Shown here: positions 113 to 6,580 of the stretch, piece after piece
Layout: each line of letters opens with the position of its first letter
Numbering within the stretch: position 1 is the first letter of the stretch
From: Candidatus Zhuqueibacterota bacterium
GTDB taxonomy: Bacteria > SM23-31
Direction: 5' to 3'
DNA: 6,580 nucleotides
Assembly (NCBI GenBank): GCA_022562855.1
Contig: JADFON010000104.1
Location: 1 to 6,580 of the forward strand
Notes under the pieces: model-generated
What the model was told of the DNA's origin: nothing
The model's database searches: none
The model's input: the letters and a program-made list of their open reading frames with translations, nothing else
Position numbers and translations under genes: made by a program

Positions 113-1417
113 TTACTTCAACAACACCATCTTCCTCGTCTGGACGAAATCGCCTGTTTGGAGGCGGTAGAAATAAATACCTGAGGAAAGGTCCGTTGCA
201 TCCAAACTGATTTCGTGATAACCTGCCGGCATTTCTCCATCAACGATGCGTGTCACTTCCTTGCCGAGCAGGTTATATACCGTCAGTTGGACCTTACCAG
301 CTTGTGGGAGCCCGTACGCTATGGTAGTAGTAGGGTTGAACGGGTTAGGATAATTCTGTCCGAGCGCGGACTGTGCCGGAATGTTTGATAACTTAGAATC
401 TTCCTCTACTTCAGTGACATCGGTTTTAACAAACTTTACTGACACCAACCATTTGATTGTGCCACTATTTTGAGGGTTCCAATTCTCTCCGCTATCTGTT
501 GTATGATATATCTTGCCCCACTTTCCAACGATCCATCCAATATTTTCATCAGTGAAATACACAGATTGTAACCATGAATCTGCTTCACTTTCTTGAGATG
601 TCCAACTCGTTCCGCCATTTGTCGTATTCAGAATTGTGCCGTTACTTCCCACCACCCAACCAGTATTTTCATCAATAAAATAGGAGGAAGTGAACCCTGA
701 TGAGTCTATTCCACTTTGAGAAATCCAATTTGAACCTCCATCGGTTGTTTTGAGGATAATTCCATCGAAACCATCTTTATCTCCAACTACCCATCCGGTA
801 TTTTCGTCGGTGAAATTGGCATAGTATAACCAACTCGCTTTGCTCGGATAGGTCTGCTGAATCCAATTTCTACCACCATCAGTTGATTTAAGAATAATTT
901 CAAGATCTGTCAGATTCAGGCTGTTACCTGTGGGGCTGTTTGGAGACGCCAGCATAAACAAGTCGACTTTCCGGTTTTTCAAGACCCGGACTATCTCTTC
1001 AACCGGGTATGAAAAGTCGGAATTCAGCTGTAAGACAATTTCATTTGCCCCGTTTGAGACAGCACACTGTTTATACAGTTGGAACGTCGGTTCGACCCGA
1101 AGCGCTGATTTGTTTTTTTCCAGCACAACGGATGCTGCAGCGCTTAGCATTTCGTCGGAACCAACGCCGACAACAATACATTTTTCCGGGAGCCCGAGAA
1201 AAGAGCTCAACTCTAATTTTAACCGGGTTCCCGTCAAGGACGGATACCTGTTCCAGTGACTTCTACAAACCTCTTCCGTGATCTCTTGTTTAAGAGCCGC
1301 CGGAATATCAAAAGGGCTTTCATTCTGATTTAGTTTAACCTCGCATGATAGTTCATTATATGAATAAGTTCCAGCTTCGAGGAGACTGTCTTTTACTATA
1401 TTTCCCCAATCAGACAT
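113..1417 (-). CDS. Chimeric ORF: N-terminal half of histidinol-phosphate aminotransferase (HisC) fused in frame to Ycf48-like repeats and a T9SS sorting domain
   Basis: This is an uninterrupted 434-codon frame made of two unrelated parts. Residues 1 to about 173 are the N-terminal half of HisC, the PLP enzyme converting imidazole-acetol phosphate and glutamate to histidinol phosphate: GVGSDEM at 84-90, EPTF at 109-112 and SPNSPTGN at 158-165. The rest of HisC (DEAY motif, PLP-binding lysine, C-terminal arginine), roughly 180 residues, is absent. Residues 174-313 are Ycf48/BNR-like repeats, and 349-434 a type IX secretion C-terminal domain. The ATG overlaps the hisD stop by 8 nt and has an AGAGG Shine-Dalgarno 6 nt upstream, so the start is the genuine hisC start in the his operon. 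There is no signal peptide, so the sorting domain would be stranded in the cytoplasm. The product cannot be an active aminotransferase. It is best read as a deletion/rearrangement junction or an assembly chimera. The open frame is certain; the biological reality of the fusion is not. Confidence 0.85.
   Translation of the reverse strand: MSDWGNIVKDSLLEAGTYSYNELSCEVKLNQNESPFDIPAALKQEITEEVCRSHWNRYPSLTGTRLKLELSSFLGLPEKCIVVGVGSDEMLSAAASVVLEKNKSALRVEPTFQLYKQCAVSNGANEIVLQLNSDFSYPVEEIVRVLKNRKVDLFMLASPNSPTGNSLNLTDLEIILKSTDGGRNWIQQTYPSKASWLYYANFTDENTGWVVGDKDGFDGIILKTTDGGSNWISQSGIDSSGFTSSYFIDENTGWVVGSNGTILNTTNGGTSWTSQESEADSWLQSVYFTDENIGWIVGKWGKIYHTTDSGENWNPQNSGTIKWLVSVKFVKTDVTEVEEDSKLSNIPAQSALGQNYPNPFNPTTTIAYGLPQAGKVQLTVYNLLGKEVTRIVDGEMPAGYHEISLDATDLSSGIYFYRLQTGDFVQTRKMVLLK
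116..373 (-). other. Type IX secretion (Por) C-terminal sorting domain
   Basis: Residues 349-434 of the chimeric protein contain QNYPNPFNPTT (354-364), then a beta-rich segment with LTVYNLLGKEV (378-388), AGYHEISLDATDLSSGIYFY (398-417) and the terminal KMVLLK. This is the classic type A T9SS sorting domain, which directs outer-membrane translocation and surface attachment or release in Bacteroidota and relatives. It is preceded by a short linker (VTEVEEDSKLSNIPAQSALG, 334-353). It only functions after Sec export, and no signal peptide is encoded upstream in this frame. Confidence 0.9.
479..898 (-). repeat. Ycf48/BNR-like repeats within the chimeric ORF
   Basis: The encoded protein shows four T(D/N)xGxxW motifs: STDGGRNW at residues 178-185, TTDGGSNW at 224-231, TTNGGTSW at 265-272 and TTDSGENW at 306-313. 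They alternate with three DENxGWxVG motifs at 204-212, 249-257 and 290-298, a period of about 41-46 residues. This is the signature of Ycf48-like (photosystem II stability factor-like) beta-propeller repeats, which are common in secreted FCB-group proteins. A complete propeller usually has about six or more such blades, and an exported one starts with a signal peptide. Only the last three to four blades remain, so the 5' part of this gene has been lost at the junction with hisC. Confidence 0.8.
899..1417 (-). pseudogene. hisC: hisC, 5' fragment (truncated histidinol-phosphate aminotransferase)
   Basis: This is the part of the chimeric frame that is recognisably HisC, residues 1-173. It holds the substrate-side N-terminal arm (KLNQNESPFDIP at 28-39) and the first half of the large PLP domain up to the SPNSPTGN loop. 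A normal HisC is about 350-360 residues, so about half is missing, including the lysine that forms the Schiff base. It directly follows hisD with an 8-nt stop/start overlap, the usual arrangement for translational coupling in hisG-hisD-hisC operons. The exact break is uncertain by a few codons, because NLTDLEIIL fits HisC while IILKSTDGG fits the repeat family. Confidence 0.75.
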
Positions 1418-2681
1418 TTCGTACCTCTATAGATTTCGCATGGGCAAACAGTCCTTCGGATCCGGCAAAAGTAATGATTGAATGCATTGCGTCTTTTAAG
1501 GCATCCTTCCCGAATTTGACGATAGAAGAAAATTTCATAAAATTCATTACACTTAGCGGAGAGGCGAAACGCGCGGCGCCAGAGGTTGGCAGTGTATGAT
1601 TCGGTCCTGCCCAATAGCCCCCAACCGCTGCCGGAGTATAAGCGCCAAGAAACATTGTCCCGGCATTCTTTATTTTTTTTGATATGTTTTCGGGGTTTTC
1701 AGTCAATATTTCAAGATGTTCGGGAGCAAGCTTGTTAATGAGGTCAATGCCCTCATTTATGGACTTTACAGTAATTACTGCGCTATTTTTCCCAATTGAC
1801 TTTTCGATTATTTTAATCCTCGGCGAGGATTTTGCAAACTTTTCAATATTACTCATTACATCATTATTAAAATTCCGGGAAGTGGAAATCAAAGCCGTTT
1901 TTGCATCAGGATCATGTTCCGCTTGTGCGATTAGGTCCCAGATTATATATTCCATGCTTACGGACCCATCAGTAAAAATAACAAGTTCGGTAGGACCCGC
2001 CGGCATGTCTATTCCCACTTTGCCAAAAACCTGCCTTTTTGCTTCATTGACATACTTGTTTCCGGGTCCTGTAATCATTGCGACAGGTTTAACCGATTCG
2101 GTTCCATATGCAAGAGCGGCTATCGCCTGAGCGCCTCCAATACAATAAACCTCGTCAATTTCCATCAAACCCGCACAACCGAGAATCAAAGGATTCATTT
2201 CACCATTTTGACAAGGCGGGGAGACAACAGCAATTCGCGGGACACCAGCCAATTGTGCCGGTACACAGTTCATAATAAGTGTGGATGGATAAGCGGCTCT
2301 TCCACCCGGCACATATATTCCTGCTGATTCTATAGGGGTAAATTTTTGTCCCAGGGTTACCCCATTTTTTGATTTCTCTAACCACGATTCCGGGATTTGG
2401 CGGCTATGAAACCGTCTGATATTTTCTGCTGCATTTTTTACGATCTCAGCGAAATCCCGGTCAAGCTGATTTTTTGCTTTTTCAATCGCGGAATGTTCTA
2501 CGCGAAATTTTCTAATATCCACTCCATCGAATTTTTTCGTATAATCAATAAGCGCCGAATCTTTTCTCACACGAACGTCTTCGATAATTTGCATTACCCG
2601 ATGTGTGAGATCATCGGTTTTGTCGTTGGCTGGCCATTGCCAGAATTCGACTAATTCATTTGATTTTTGAAATTCTTTCAT
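1410..2681 (-). CDS. hisD: Histidinol dehydrogenase
   Basis: HisD carries out the last two steps of histidine synthesis, oxidising histidinol to histidine with two NAD+; it is a zinc-dependent cytoplasmic homodimer. The 423 residues are a normal length. Family motifs are in order: GIYVPGGRAAYPST (121-134), GGAQAIAALA (182-191), GPGNKYVNEAKR (205-216), DMPAGPTE (225-232), QAEHDPDA (253-260), PEHLEI (320-325) and GPNHTLPT (359-366). By comparison with E. coli HisD, Gln253, His256 and His414 are zinc ligands and Glu321/His322 the catalytic pair. The fourth ligand, Asp in the family's GDY motif (Asp360 in E. coli), is Gly355 here (codon at 1617-1619 on the minus strand), which is unexpected. The gene starts 20 nt after hisG with no strong Shine-Dalgarno, so it is probably coupled to hisG, and it overlaps hisC by 8 nt. 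Identification is certain; full activity is open. Confidence 0.97.
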   Translation of the reverse strand: MKEFQKSNELVEFWQWPANDKTDDLTHRVMQIIEDVRVRKDSALIDYTKKFDGVDIRKFRVEHSAIEKAKNQLDRDFAEIVKNAAENIRRFHSRQIPESWLEKSKNGVTLGQKFTPIESAGIYVPGGRAAYPSTLIMNCVPAQLAGVPRIAVVSPPCQNGEMNPLILGCAGLMEIDEVYCIGGAQAIAALAYGTESVKPVAMITGPGNKYVNEAKRQVFGKVGIDMPAGPTELVIFTDGSVSMEYIIWDLIAQAEHDPDAKTALISTSRNFNNDVMSNIEKFAKSSPRIKIIEKSIGKNSAVITVKSINEGIDLINKLAPEHLEILTENPENISKKIKNAGTMFLGAYTPAAVGGYWAGPNHTLPTSGAARFASPLSVMNFMKFSSIVKFGKDALKDAMHSIITFAGSEGLFAHAKSIEVRNV

Positions 2682-2701: not shown

Positions 2702-3610
2702 CTAATAAATTACCTTGTTTAGCGGGTATTCGATGATATCCCGCGCTTCTATTTTTTTCAGCAGAGGTATAATATCCCTCACTTCTTTCTCTTTGGTTAC
2801 AATTTCAAGGGCAACCCAGTTTTCGTCCAACAAAGACGATATTGTTGGATCTTTCATTGCCGGCACCAAACTCCTCGCCTCCTCTATTCGGTTACGGGGC
2901 AAGTTGAACTTCAAACCAACCAAACCGTAGGCATTAAGCGCTCCCTGCAGCAATAGCGCTATTTGATCTATTTTTTCCTTTTTCCATGAATCTGCATAAC
3001 TTTCCTTGTTCGCTATGAATCTGGGAGTGGATATGAGAATAGTATCTATTATTCTCAAATTATTCTCCTTCAGGGACCTGCCCGTTTCTGTTGCTTCCGC
3101 TATCGCATCGACAAGGATTGGGGATTTTACTTCTGTAGCCCCCCAGGAAAATTCTACGGAAGCCGATATACCTTTTTCCGCAAGATAGTTCCTGGTTGTA
3201 TTGACCAGTTCCGTTGCAATACTTTTATTATTCAAGTCGTTTACGGTTTTTATTTCTGAATCCTCGGGAACAGCCAGCACCCATTTTACCGGTTTCATCG
3301 ATCTCTTCGAGTAAGCCAATTCTATTATTTCGATTACGTCGGCTTCATTTTCCATAATCCAGTCTTTACCCGTGATACCAGCGTCAAACACACCCTTGTC
3401 GACATATCCTGCAATTTCTTGTGCCCGAATCAAGACTACCTCCAGTTCATCGTCGTCAGCGACAGGATAATAAGACCTGCTATTACGCAAAAACTTGAAT
3501 CCCGCCTTTTCAAATAGCGCAAATGTCGCCTCTTCCAGGCTGCCTGAAGGCAAACCTAACTTTATTGATTTTTCCGAACCGCCACCGTTAATATTAAATT
3601 TCTTGTTCAT
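2702..3610 (-). CDS. hisG: ATP phosphoribosyltransferase, long form
   Basis: HisG condenses ATP with PRPP to phosphoribosyl-ATP, the first committed and feedback-inhibited step of histidine synthesis. Counting from the chosen ATG it has 302 residues, the long HisG type that works without HisZ. The N-terminal catalytic domain starts with IKLGLPSGSLEE and contains DAGITGKDW (about 76-84). The PRPP-binding loop is EATETGRSL (about 172-180). The C-terminal 75-80 residues (NRIEEARSLVPAMKDPTISSL, then VALEIVTKEKEVRDIIPLLK) are the ACT-like regulatory domain that binds histidine. A TTG codon immediately precedes the ATG, but GAGGAG lies 5 nt upstream of the ATG and only 2 nt from the TTG, so the ATG (3608-3610) is preferred. 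It is the first structural gene of the operon and sits about 20 nt after the attenuator terminator. Confidence 0.97.
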   Translation of the reverse strand: MNKKFNINGGGSEKSIKLGLPSGSLEEATFALFEKAGFKFLRNSRSYYPVADDDELEVVLIRAQEIAGYVDKGVFDAGITGKDWIMENEADVIEIIELAYSKRSMKPVKWVLAVPEDSEIKTVNDLNNKSIATELVNTTRNYLAEKGISASVEFSWGATEVKSPILVDAIAEATETGRSLKENNLRIIDTILISTPRFIANKESYADSWKKEKIDQIALLLQGALNAYGLVGLKFNLPRNRIEEARSLVPAMKDPTISSLLDENWVALEIVTKEKEVRDIIPLLKKIEARDIIEYPLNKVIY

Positions 3611-3661: not shown

Positions 3662-3736
3662 CGAATTCATTATTAAATATATCTCGACTATACCACTCCC
3701 ACCATCCCTTTTAAGAATGTCATATGATGATGGTGG
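3651..3736 (-). promoter_or_regulatory. his attenuator: mutually exclusive 1:2 and 2:3 pairings
   Basis: Three complementary segments precede the terminator's 3' arm. Segment 1 (3729-3736, transcript CCACCAUC) lies in the His codons. Segment 2 (3698-3706, transcript GAUGGUGGG) lies near the leader stop. Segment 3 (3651-3658, transcript CCCGCCAU) is the 5' arm of the terminator. Segment 1 pairs with segment 2 over 8 bp, and segment 2 with segment 3 over 8 bp with one G-U. Inferred mechanism: a ribosome stalled on His codons masks segment 1, 2:3 forms and hisG is transcribed. A ribosome reaching the stop at 3688-3690 masks segment 2, so terminator 3:4 forms. With no translation, 1:2 also leaves 3:4 free. 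This is the enterobacterial his logic, read here directly from base complementarity. Confidence 0.88.
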
Positions 3737-3768
3737 CGATGAGTGATCTGTACAGTGTAATTTTTCAT
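3688..3768 (-). CDS. hisL: his operon leader peptide (26 aa, HRHHHH)
   Basis: This 26-codon ORF runs from ATG (3766-3768) to TAG (3688-3690). Residues 10-15 are His-Arg-His-His-His-His, five histidines in six codons (CAT CGC CAC CAT CAT CAT). It then reads MTFLKGMVGVV to the stop. Such a run is the hallmark of his leader peptides, whose translation senses charged tRNA-His; E. coli HisL has seven consecutive His codons. It sits between a good promoter and an intrinsic terminator, directly before hisG. No clear Shine-Dalgarno precedes the ATG (the upstream 20 nt are A/T-rich). The in-frame codons upstream offer no better start except weak non-ATG ones, and the expected transcript start is only about 24 nt away. 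Confidence 0.93.
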   Translation of the reverse strand: MKNYTVQITHRHHHHMTFLKGMVGVV

Positions 3769-3798
3769 TTTAAAGAATTTACTCAGTTTAATTGCTTC

Positions 3799-3827
3799 AG
3801 TATACAAAAAAAATAAACCAATTTCAA
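3799..3827 (-). promoter_or_regulatory. Sigma-70-like promoter of the his operon
   Basis: On the minus strand there is TTGAAA (3822-3827) and TATACT (3799-3804) separated by exactly 17 bp. Both hexamers are one base off the TTGACA/TATAAT consensus. Initiation is expected near A3792, giving a 5' leader of about 24 nt before the leader-peptide ATG at 3768. The -35 element lies only about 40 bp downstream of the permease stop codon. The match is to a classical vegetative promoter, not the TAnnTTTG type of Bacteroidetes. Confidence 0.75.
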
Positions 3828-3866: not shown

Positions 3867-4787
3867 TTATTGGTCATCATTGGTTTTGCCATTTTTGTAT
3901 TTTAATGATAACCGGGTAATCGTAACACCTCCAAGTATTCCCGCACCTCCCAATACCTGCTGGGAGTTGACCGTTTCGTGGAGAAAAATCATCGCAACGA
4001 TTACCGCCATTACAGGCACCAGATTTTGAAAAATCGCTGTTTGAACATTGCCCACTTTGGAAACGGCATAAAACCAGACAGTGTAGCCTATAACGTTTGC
4101 AAAGAAAAACGAAAAAAACAGCAATCCCCAGCTTGTCTTTGAGACTGCCGCCCAGTCCATTGAAACAAAATCAGGTATAGCAGTGGGGATAAGAAACACC
4201 GTGCCAAAAACAAATGTGACCGAGACAACCTTTATCATTGAGGTTTCTTCAATGAGCGGTTTTGCAAATACGGTAAAAATACTCCACAGCAGCGCTGTAA
4301 TCAGAATGAGAATATCACCGGTTAAATTGCTCCTGGAAAACTCAATGCCACTCACTGAATTGTTAAGTATAAGAAAAATTCCGGCAAACGAAATAAATAT
4401 TCCAACCCAGGTGAGACCCCGGACTTTTTCGTATTTCATCGCCACACTCAAAATCGCCACAAACATAGGAACAGTCGAATACATGAGCGAGCTGTTGCTG
4501 GCGGTTGTCAGGCTGATCCCTTCGATAAACAAAATTTGTAAAATTGTGTTGCCCAGCACGGCAAGAATAATGAGCCGCCCGAAGTGCCGTTTTATAAAGC
4601 CATAATCCTTTATAAAGAAATGGTAGTATAGAATAAAAAAGATTGATGAACCGATAAATCGAAGCGCGTTAAATGCAAAAGGAGGAATTTCATTCAACGC
4701 AATTTTGATGACGGTAAAATTCAGCGCCCAGATTATTGCTATAAAGAACAAGAGAGAATCAACAACAGGAAGAGAAGTTTTTTTCAT
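3867..4787 (-). CDS. DMT-superfamily (EamA-type) permease
   Basis: This is a 306-residue inner-membrane protein with two EamA halves of five helices each. Hydrophobic segments lie at about 10-30, 37-57, 70-90, 97-117, 126-142, 157-175, 185-203, 219-240, 248-268 and 276-292, with a basic C-terminal tail (KYKNGKTNDDQ). WALNFTVIKIALNEIPPFAFNALRF near the start and the QNLVPVMAVIVAMIFLHE stretch in helix 9 are typical of drug/metabolite exporters of the RhaT/YdcZ/EamA kind. Family members export amino acids, nucleotides or drugs, but the substrate cannot be read from sequence. The ATG has no obvious Shine-Dalgarno. No intrinsic terminator follows, so some transcripts may run into the his leader, where the attenuator would still control them. 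A link to histidine transport is only positional. Confidence 0.9.
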   Translation of the reverse strand: MKKTSLPVVDSLLFFIAIIWALNFTVIKIALNEIPPFAFNALRFIGSSIFFILYYHFFIKDYGFIKRHFGRLIILAVLGNTILQILFIEGISLTTASNSSLMYSTVPMFVAILSVAMKYEKVRGLTWVGIFISFAGIFLILNNSVSGIEFSRSNLTGDILILITALLWSIFTVFAKPLIEETSMIKVVSVTFVFGTVFLIPTAIPDFVSMDWAAVSKTSWGLLFFSFFFANVIGYTVWFYAVSKVGNVQTAIFQNLVPVMAVIVAMIFLHETVNSQQVLGGAGILGGVTITRLSLKYKNGKTNDDQ

Positions 4788-5039: not shown

Positions 5040-5675
5040 CTAATTGCGACCAAAACCCGTTTGACGTTCATCAAAGGAGGGTTTGATCAACTGCTGTTGA
5101 AAACCCCCGCCTCCACGGCTACCGCGGACTCCACCTCCGCCGCCGCCGCCTCTACCAGCGCCACCACCGCCTCTGCCGCGTCTGCCGCCGCGTTGCGGAC
5201 GTGTGTAATTAAATATCTCTTTCTGCCCGTCAGTCAGCATTTTCTCAATATTGCCGAGATGTTGATCGAGGTCTTTTATCTTGTCCTCATATTTTTTTCT
5301 CAATTTATTATCCTCGGTAATGTAGGTACGGTACGATTCCATTGTCGCCTGAAAATCACCGCCTCCACCGCGACCACGACCGCCTCGTCTGCCGCCAAAA
5401 CCAAGCCCGGCGGTAACCACCGTTTCAGGCAATCCCAGTTTCTCTGCAAGCTCAGCCGATTCTTTCAGGTATGGTTCATAAATTTTCACAAGTTCGTCCA
5501 CTTCCTTATTGAATTCACTCATTTGACTGTCGACGATTCCCAATAATTCAGCGGCAGCTTCCTTATCCAAAAGGAAAACGGCCCGCGCCCTTCCCCTGCC
5601 GCCGCGTTGCGCATAAGATACACTCGCGACCGCAAGCAATAAGACAAGCATCATTATACTTGATTTACGAAACAT
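5040..5675 (-). CDS. Secreted Arg-Gly-rich protein with a Spy/CpxP-like helical body
   Basis: The 211-residue protein has a clear Sec signal peptide (MFRKSS, hydrophobic core MMLVLLLAVASV, probable cleavage after SYA at residue 22). An AGGAGG Shine-Dalgarno 8 nt upstream supports this ATG. The mature part alternates charged helices with RGG tracts. Helices occupy about 35-81 (LLDKEAAAELLGIVDSQMSE onward) and 108-157 (ending EKMLTDGQKEIFNY). RGG tracts occupy 23-32, 94-107 and 160-191. LTDGQ at 147-151 resembles the LTxxQ motif of periplasmic Spy/CpxP stress chaperones, and the helical spacing fits, but the family link is tentative. It could be a periplasmic chaperone or metal/stress-responsive protein. 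Function is not established. It follows the M14 gene by 164 nt with no terminator seen between, and ends at a strong terminator. Confidence 0.85.
   Translation of the reverse strand: MFRKSSIMMLVLLLAVASVSYAQRGGRGRARAVFLLDKEAAAELLGIVDSQMSEFNKEVDELVKIYEPYLKESAELAEKLGLPETVVTAGLGFGGRRGGRGRGGGGDFQATMESYRTYITEDNKLRKKYEDKIKDLDQHLGNIEKMLTDGQKEIFNYTRPQRGGRRGRGGGGAGRGGGGGGGVRGSRGGGGFQQQLIKPSFDERQTGFGRN
5103..5198 (-). repeat. RGG low-complexity tract in the secreted protein
   Basis: This codes residues 160-191 of the secreted protein, almost entirely Arg and Gly (for example RRGRGGGG, AGRGGGGGGG). On the plus strand it appears as repeated CCNCC/GCC triplets. A second, shorter tract of the same kind lies at about 5358-5396 (residues 94-106). 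Tandem triplet composition makes both prone to length change by slippage. Confidence 0.8.
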
Positions 5676-5839: not shown

Positions 5840-6580
5840 TTACCGGAAATACTTAAATATTGGGTACAACACACTATTATTCTCAATTCCTTGAGCTTTC
5901 AAATAATCATCAAAATAATTCCATGTAGCCAAGCCATCGTCCGATTGCGGTTCGAGAAGATAGAATGTCAGATAAGCAAGCGGCTGGGCAAGATCGACCT
6001 TGTATGATCCTGCCGGGAATTCTTTGCTGGCTTCCCGGAATGTCCCCTTGAGGTTTACCAATGTATGCCGATTAAACCGTGTCGCGGTTACTTCCAATTC
6101 GTTGACAATATATTCTTCGCCTTCAAAGGTGGTTGCTTTGCCCAACTTTGTAACGGTAATGCCATGCTCCGATAGCTTATCGGCGATAACTTGAAAATCA
6201 GCAGGAAATATATAGCCCCTGGGGACAGTACTTGTCAGTGTCGGTTCATACTTGTTATAATTGAGAACACCGGGATATGACAAAATTCTGCCGGTCGGAA
6301 CATTTCTTCCTCTTCCCCTGCCTCCTCTTCCACGACCGCCTCTTCCGCCTCTGCCTTCACCCCTACCCCCTCTTCCAGCGACTTGCGCACCGGCAGGTTC
6401 GCTCGGAACAAAGTTGGTTTCTCTGACCAAAAGTTCGAAGGGTTCATCAAGCGGAACAACCTGAAACTGAACACCCTTTTGGAACTGTCCGGCATTATCC
6501 CGAATTTGCATTATCGTTTCGCCTTCCGCTATTATATTTGTCTGCATTATTTCCGAGCCGTTTTTGTTTGTGAATTCCAG
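5840..6580 (-). CDS. M14-family zinc carboxypeptidase, C-terminal part (partial at the window edge)
   Basis: The frame is open to the right edge: eleven codons (LEFTNKNGSEI) precede the first internal ATG at 6545-6547, so the 246 residues seen are the C-terminal part of a longer gene. No HxxE...H zinc site is in this part. The assignment rests on the C-terminal region typical of large exported M14 peptidases: GYIFPADFQVIADKLSEHGI (fragment residues 122-141), then FPAGSYKVDLAQPLAYL (188-204), then LLEPQSDDGLATWNYFDDYL (208-227) and a YPIF ending. An RGG tract (residues 70-92) sits between the peptidase-side beta domain and this tail. The enzyme would be Sec-exported and trim C-terminal residues from peptides outside the cytoplasm, if the missing catalytic domain is intact. 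The family call is from recognition of the tail only. Confidence 0.7.
   Translation of the reverse strand: MEFTNKNGSEIMQTNIIAEGETIMQIRDNAGQFQKGVQFQVVPLDEPFELLVRETNFVPSEPAGAQVAGRGGRGEGRGGRGGRGRGGRGRGRNVPTGRILSYPGVLNYNKYEPTLTSTVPRGYIFPADFQVIADKLSEHGITVTKLGKATTFEGEEYIVNELEVTATRFNRHTLVNLKGTFREASKEFPAGSYKVDLAQPLAYLTFYLLEPQSDDGLATWNYFDDYLKAQGIENNSVLYPIFKYFR
6305..6376 (-). repeat. RGG low-complexity tract in the M14 peptidase
   Basis: This codes residues 69-92 of the partial M14 protein, a run of Gly-Arg-Gly and Gly-Arg-Gly-Gly units with a single Glu. On the plus strand it is a C/T-rich tract of imperfect CCTCTTCC/CCTCTGCC units of about nine bases. It interrupts the linker before the conserved C-terminal module and resembles the RGG tracts of the neighbouring secreted protein in composition. 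Confidence 0.75.

Follow-up and report, generated by a model that had tools for sequence, protein, structure and literature searches.

The window, the whole stretch of 6,580 nucleotides analysed here, carries on its minus strand, in this order, a gene for an EamA-type transporter, a gap of 98 nt, an open reading frame (ORF) of 26 codons, a terminator hairpin, hisG and hisD (Table 1). Translation confirms that the short ORF upstream of hisG is rich in histidine, with five His among six codons, as the original prediction had it. The ORF was also said to lie between a promoter and a terminator, and this holds: each is close to chance in a scan on its own, and both are matched in the nearest relative (G001). 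In the same frame, a TTG at position 3807 could also serve as the start of a longer leader. Inspection of the window sequence found no Shine-Dalgarno sequence before the leader ORF; hisG has one.

Table 1. Features of the hisG leader region and neighbouring genes, with window coordinates
Feature	Position	Strand	Role or basis
EamA-type transporter gene	4787..3867	(-)	Upstream neighbour of leader
Promoter-like TTGAAA-17-TATACT, ~30 nt before leader ATG	3827-3799	(-)	Hexamer scan; match in G001/L003
Leader peptide ORF, MKNYTVQITHRHHHHMTFLKGMVGVV, 26 codons	3768..3688	(-)	Translation; counterparts in L003, L004, L008
Strand 1 (CACUC...CCACCAUC)	3745-3729	(-)	Pairs with strand 2 when ribosome-free; predicted fold
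Regulatory codons His-Arg-His-His-His-His, overlapping strand 1	3741-3724	(-)	Direct sequence reading
Strand 2 (GAUGGUGGGAGUG), inside codons for GMVGV, the last leader codons	3706-3694	(-)	Alternative partner of strands 1 and 3
Intrinsic terminator hairpin (3:4), GAAACCCGCC-AUAAAC-GGCGGGUUUU	3662-3637	(-)	Scan, folding, compensated pair against G001
Strand 3 (CCCGCCAU), terminator 5' arm plus two loop bases	3658-3651	(-)	Pairs with strand 2
hisG, ATP phosphoribosyltransferase, 302 aa, AGGAG upstream	3610..2702	(-)	TIGR00070 (167.5 bits), TIGR03455
hisD, histidinol dehydrogenase	2681..1410	(-)	Profile matches

On this minus strand, hisC (113-1417) breaks off after about 180 residues, at a junction near 870-885; from there the frame stays open through YCF48-type repeats to a T9SS sorting tail. 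The rest of the assembly showed no high-identity match to the second half of hisC; an intact hisC is present in the related genome G002, and hisF is encoded at the beginning of a separate contig (C208:66). Either the fusion is genuine or it is an artefact of a chimeric assembly. The earlier assignment of the DNA to the FCB group has a single support in the window, the T9SS sorting domain (TIGR04183), and that domain sits on this doubtful fusion. Two adjoining ORFs, at 5040-5675 and 5840-6547 of the minus strand, contain long Arg-Gly-rich tracts and gave no match to Pfam or NCBIfam.

Six genomes of the phylum were in the collection, five of them with hisG. A leader ORF and a terminator precede hisG in the family's two other sequenced genera, so that the search upstream of hisG in relatives suggested with the original prediction was borne out: His runs and terminators are conserved in both. 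In G001, whose HisG is 74% identical to that of the window, the leader MNFNFHHHYHHVAFRYGMVGVLY contains HHHYHH and is followed by a terminator; in G002 (66% identity) the leader MKINITINNSQHHHHHHHHSISG contains HHHHHHHH and is followed by two terminators in tandem. Both of the latter sit between the His8 leader and hisG (L004, 1340-1460). Genes upstream of the leader differ among the three genera. A leader followed by a terminator (MKNIYFTHIYIHFHYWYWNHKSRGLP) also precedes hisG in G005, from another family of the same class; no leader was found before hisG in G004, of the same class, where another coding frame ends shortly upstream. The leaders of the two family relatives (L003, L004) likewise have no Shine-Dalgarno sequence, and its absence, held at first to be distinctive, does not set the window apart.

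Comparison with G001 shows what is kept. A promoter-like TTGAAT-17-TATACT is found there with the same hexamer spacing and at the same distance from the leader start. The peptide is conserved between relatives only in its His codons and in those of strand 2, where the stretch ATGGTGGGAGT, coding MVGV, is invariant between the window and G001. One terminator pair has changed on both sides from G-C to A-U, the antiterminator is still paired at that position through a U-G/U-A switch, and the core of the 1:2 hairpin remains paired via one-sided changes. With an alignment of no more than two close sequences, this covariation is suggestive rather than statistical.

The leader RNA is predicted to form a set of mutually exclusive pairings, 1:2, 2:3 and 3:4. 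The fold of the full leader has a z-score of -4.4, and none of 200 shuffled sequences was equally stable. The terminator hairpin is predicted at -15.4 kcal/mol and has a nine-T tail (U-tract 3640-3632). The antiterminator comprises 8 bp between AUGGUGGG of strand 2 and all of strand 3, at -14.6 kcal/mol, with 1.6% of shuffles as good (p 0.0155); the corresponding p values are 0.0105 in G001 and 0.004 in G005. In G002 it is the second terminator that has an antiterminator partner, of 11 bp and just past the leader stop (p 0.0005), and pairing of the first terminator with that partner is not beyond chance. The 1:2 hairpin appears in the predicted fold, with p values against shuffles of 0.0545 in the window and 0.0135 in G001; the same test was not significant in G002 and G005. 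Predicted folding of RNA truncated ahead of strand 4, with the middle His codon occupied by a ribosome, gave 2:3; with the ribosome at the leader stop codon it gave the terminator. Since strand 2 lies in the last codons and the leader stop is 25 nt before the terminator, a ribosome finishing the leader would cover strand 2 and free the terminator. As modelled, the geometry of the window is that expected for ribosome-mediated attenuation. The ORF, its codons, the terminator, the exclusive pairings with their geometry, and the retention of the design in relatives are shown by this analysis.

The best explanation for these features, and one that we regard as very probably correct, is that transcription of the his operon is controlled here by ribosome-mediated attenuation; the earlier proposal of a his leader acting in this way is supported, in that G001 and G002 keep the His-run ORF and the terminator before hisG. 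Consecutive His codons before a biosynthetic operon and an intrinsic terminator between them are present, as in a classical his attenuator, and so, by prediction from the sequence, is an antiterminator that excludes the terminator and is free to form on stalling. The start site, the translation of the leader ORF, the stalling and the regulatory response that we infer are as follows. RNA polymerase would begin near position 3792 and transcribe the leader, with a ribosome trailing behind on its ORF. Given ample charged His-tRNA, this ribosome would pass the five His codons, reach the UAG and cover strand 2; strand 3 would then pair with strand 4, and the resulting terminator would stop transcription before hisG. 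When His-tRNA is scarce, the ribosome would halt at the regulatory codons and block strand 1, leaving strand 2 free to form the antiterminator with strand 3; no terminator would form, and hisGD and the genes behind would be transcribed. If no ribosome is loaded, 1:2 would form and the terminator would win.

Leaders of a similar kind are found before another operon of the phylum. Reading of the sequences upstream of trpE in G001 and G002 (G000, the window's own genome, was excluded, as its trpE is cut by a contig end) gave the leaders MILFSVKYYWWWYIMEESAV and MAELKLHKVRESYWWYYWYCKQYEFTDWCD; behind each lies a GC-rich hairpin with a U-tract. The two leaders contain the Trp-rich stretches YYWWWY (G001, L231) and YWWYYWYC (G002, L233) and are likely to be trp attenuators in the same phylum. 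Such a match between leader codons and pathway, His with his and Trp with trp, is a signature of attenuation. Inspection by eye of the regions upstream of leuA revealed no obvious leader. The G005 hisG leader mixes Tyr and Trp codons among its His codons (HIYIHFHYWYWNH; L008, 622-700). It is conceivable, if rather unlikely, that a shortage of aromatic amino acids would also release the his operon there, and that the his and trp operons of the phylum are under one style of attenuator in which some leaders mix signals. The Bacteroid-trp motif stands before trp genes and contains Trp codons. This structured motif of Bacteroidetes (Rfam RF01692; PMC2864571) can be compared with the trpE leaders of G001 and G002 and concerns trp rather than his; it had no match in L231 or L233 at an E-value of 0.1.

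It might be argued that the ORF is a chance frame, that the hairpin simply ends transcription of the EamA gene and that hisG has its own promoter. The EamA gene, whose end lies some 100 nt upstream, has no obvious terminator of its own, and the scans of the window, taken alone, were not above chance for either promoters (2 found, 2.2 expected) or terminators (1 found, 0.8 expected). However, the His run recurs at this place in all three genera of the family despite the different upstream genes, and such runs are almost absent elsewhere in the genome: in the 2.5-Mb assembly only two sites have four consecutive His codons and a nearby fifth, namely the hisG leader and one antisense inside a transposase gene. 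Moreover, the complementarity between strand 2 and the terminator arm exceeds chance, and relatives place Trp codons likewise before trpE. A chance frame is thus very improbable. This transposase site (C75 of G000) and a further tetra-His site in the phylum's genomes, antisense to another coding gene (C119 of G003), were rejected as leaders.

We give an equally low probability to control of translation by the leader, through altered access to the hisG ribosome-binding site or through reinitiation. Some his attenuators do hide a ribosome-binding site (PMC9413887), and reinitiation behind leader genes has been suggested to be a general effect, but the distances reported for it are 10-14 nt (PMC4833913), against 77 nt here from the leader stop to the hisG start. 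A strong hairpin and nine U also stand between leader and hisG, and the AGGAG of hisG lies outside the hairpin. HRHHHH could bind metal ions, but that the product is the peptide itself, a metal-binding His-rich micropeptide, is the least credible account of all, as the peptide is not conserved between relatives beyond the His and strand-2 codons, Trp-rich equivalents precede trpE and a terminator directly follows the ORF.

Attenuation of the his operon was also looked for beyond the phylum, in hisG upstream regions sampled across the phylum to which a named Bacteroidetes genome belongs; any ORF with four or more His in a stretch of eight residues was counted as His-rich. At loci with the typical HisG of Bacteroidota (about 26-32% identity to that of the window), 32 of 44 have such an ORF on the coding strand, compared with 1/44 in the antisense control; these genomes are related to each other, and the counts of loci are not of independent events. 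Chance frames may account for one or two of the 32 (e.g. L189, L229). At loci with a window-type HisG (54-60% identity) in the same sample, no coding-strand His-rich leader was found (0/46; 2/46 on the opposite strand). Among 14 Bacteroidota leaders with a detected terminator, the 2:3 pairing reached p <= 0.05 in 12, and the terminator usually lies 24-35 nt behind the leader stop. Several leaders end in GVGL(V), EVGVL, EAGVL or GAGIL, at the position of GMVGV and strand 2 in the window. These leaders commonly have mixed or broken His runs (NHRHHH in L193, HHHNHH in L205), and the Arg-interrupted run is thus not the distinctive variant it was first taken for.

His-rich short ORFs were also observed upstream of hisG in L030 and L032 (Planctomycetota), L063 (UBA2214) and L015, with a terminator-like hairpin behind the ORF in the first three. 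These four are possible further his attenuators.

These results extend the known range of his attenuation to an uncultured phylum. In the sampled Bacteroidota with a typical HisG, His-rich leaders are the rule before hisG, and those scanned were missed by the Rfam model. Gene calling usually passes over ORFs of this length; many unannotated attenuators would be recovered by a new covariance model or by scanning for leader codons, and these attenuators show to which amino acid an operon responds.

The Rfam His_leader model (RF00514), suggested at the outset as a check, scored the window at 29.0 bits, below the gathering threshold of 49, with an E. coli control at 131.6 bits; all 19 other upstream regions scanned were also below threshold. 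Sub-threshold matches, to several leader families, were driven by the terminator and U-tract, and no T-box model was among the Rfam matches in the window up to E = 5. Because terminator and U-tract make up most of the shared signal, a covariance model of the group would not separate descent from convergence.

Attenuation of this kind, described at the outset as best known in gammaproteobacteria, is not confined to them and has cases in Bacteroidota and Firmicutes. In Flavobacterium psychrophilum and other Flavobacteriaceae, a conserved 5' element without Rfam hits precedes hisG, and leader-peptide attenuation has been reported before amino-acid operons (PMC9723704). The Bacteroidota hisG leaders resemble that of the window in their His-rich ORF, their stop-to-terminator distance of about 24-35 nt and a terminator arm of the ACCC(C)G type, but differ in the type of HisG enzyme that follows; the shared layout may be convergent. 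His-leader attenuators are also known from the Bacillus cereus group, Eubacteriales and Erysipelotrichales of the Firmicutes, a phylum in which the Rfam model found no his leader (PMC9413887). Like the window, these have a leader with His codons (three to five in a row) and a terminator and antiterminator before the his operon (PMC9413887), although phylum and sequence are different. The enterobacterial hisL attenuator (E. coli, L230) shares with the window a short ORF with a His run, exclusive pairings and an intrinsic terminator, with hisG next. There is no likeness at the Rfam threshold, however, and in contrast to hisL the window has strand 2 inside the leader ORF and a His run broken by Arg. 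The element in the window very probably works like enterobacterial hisL: the mechanism is one already known, and the phylum is, as far as checked, new for it.
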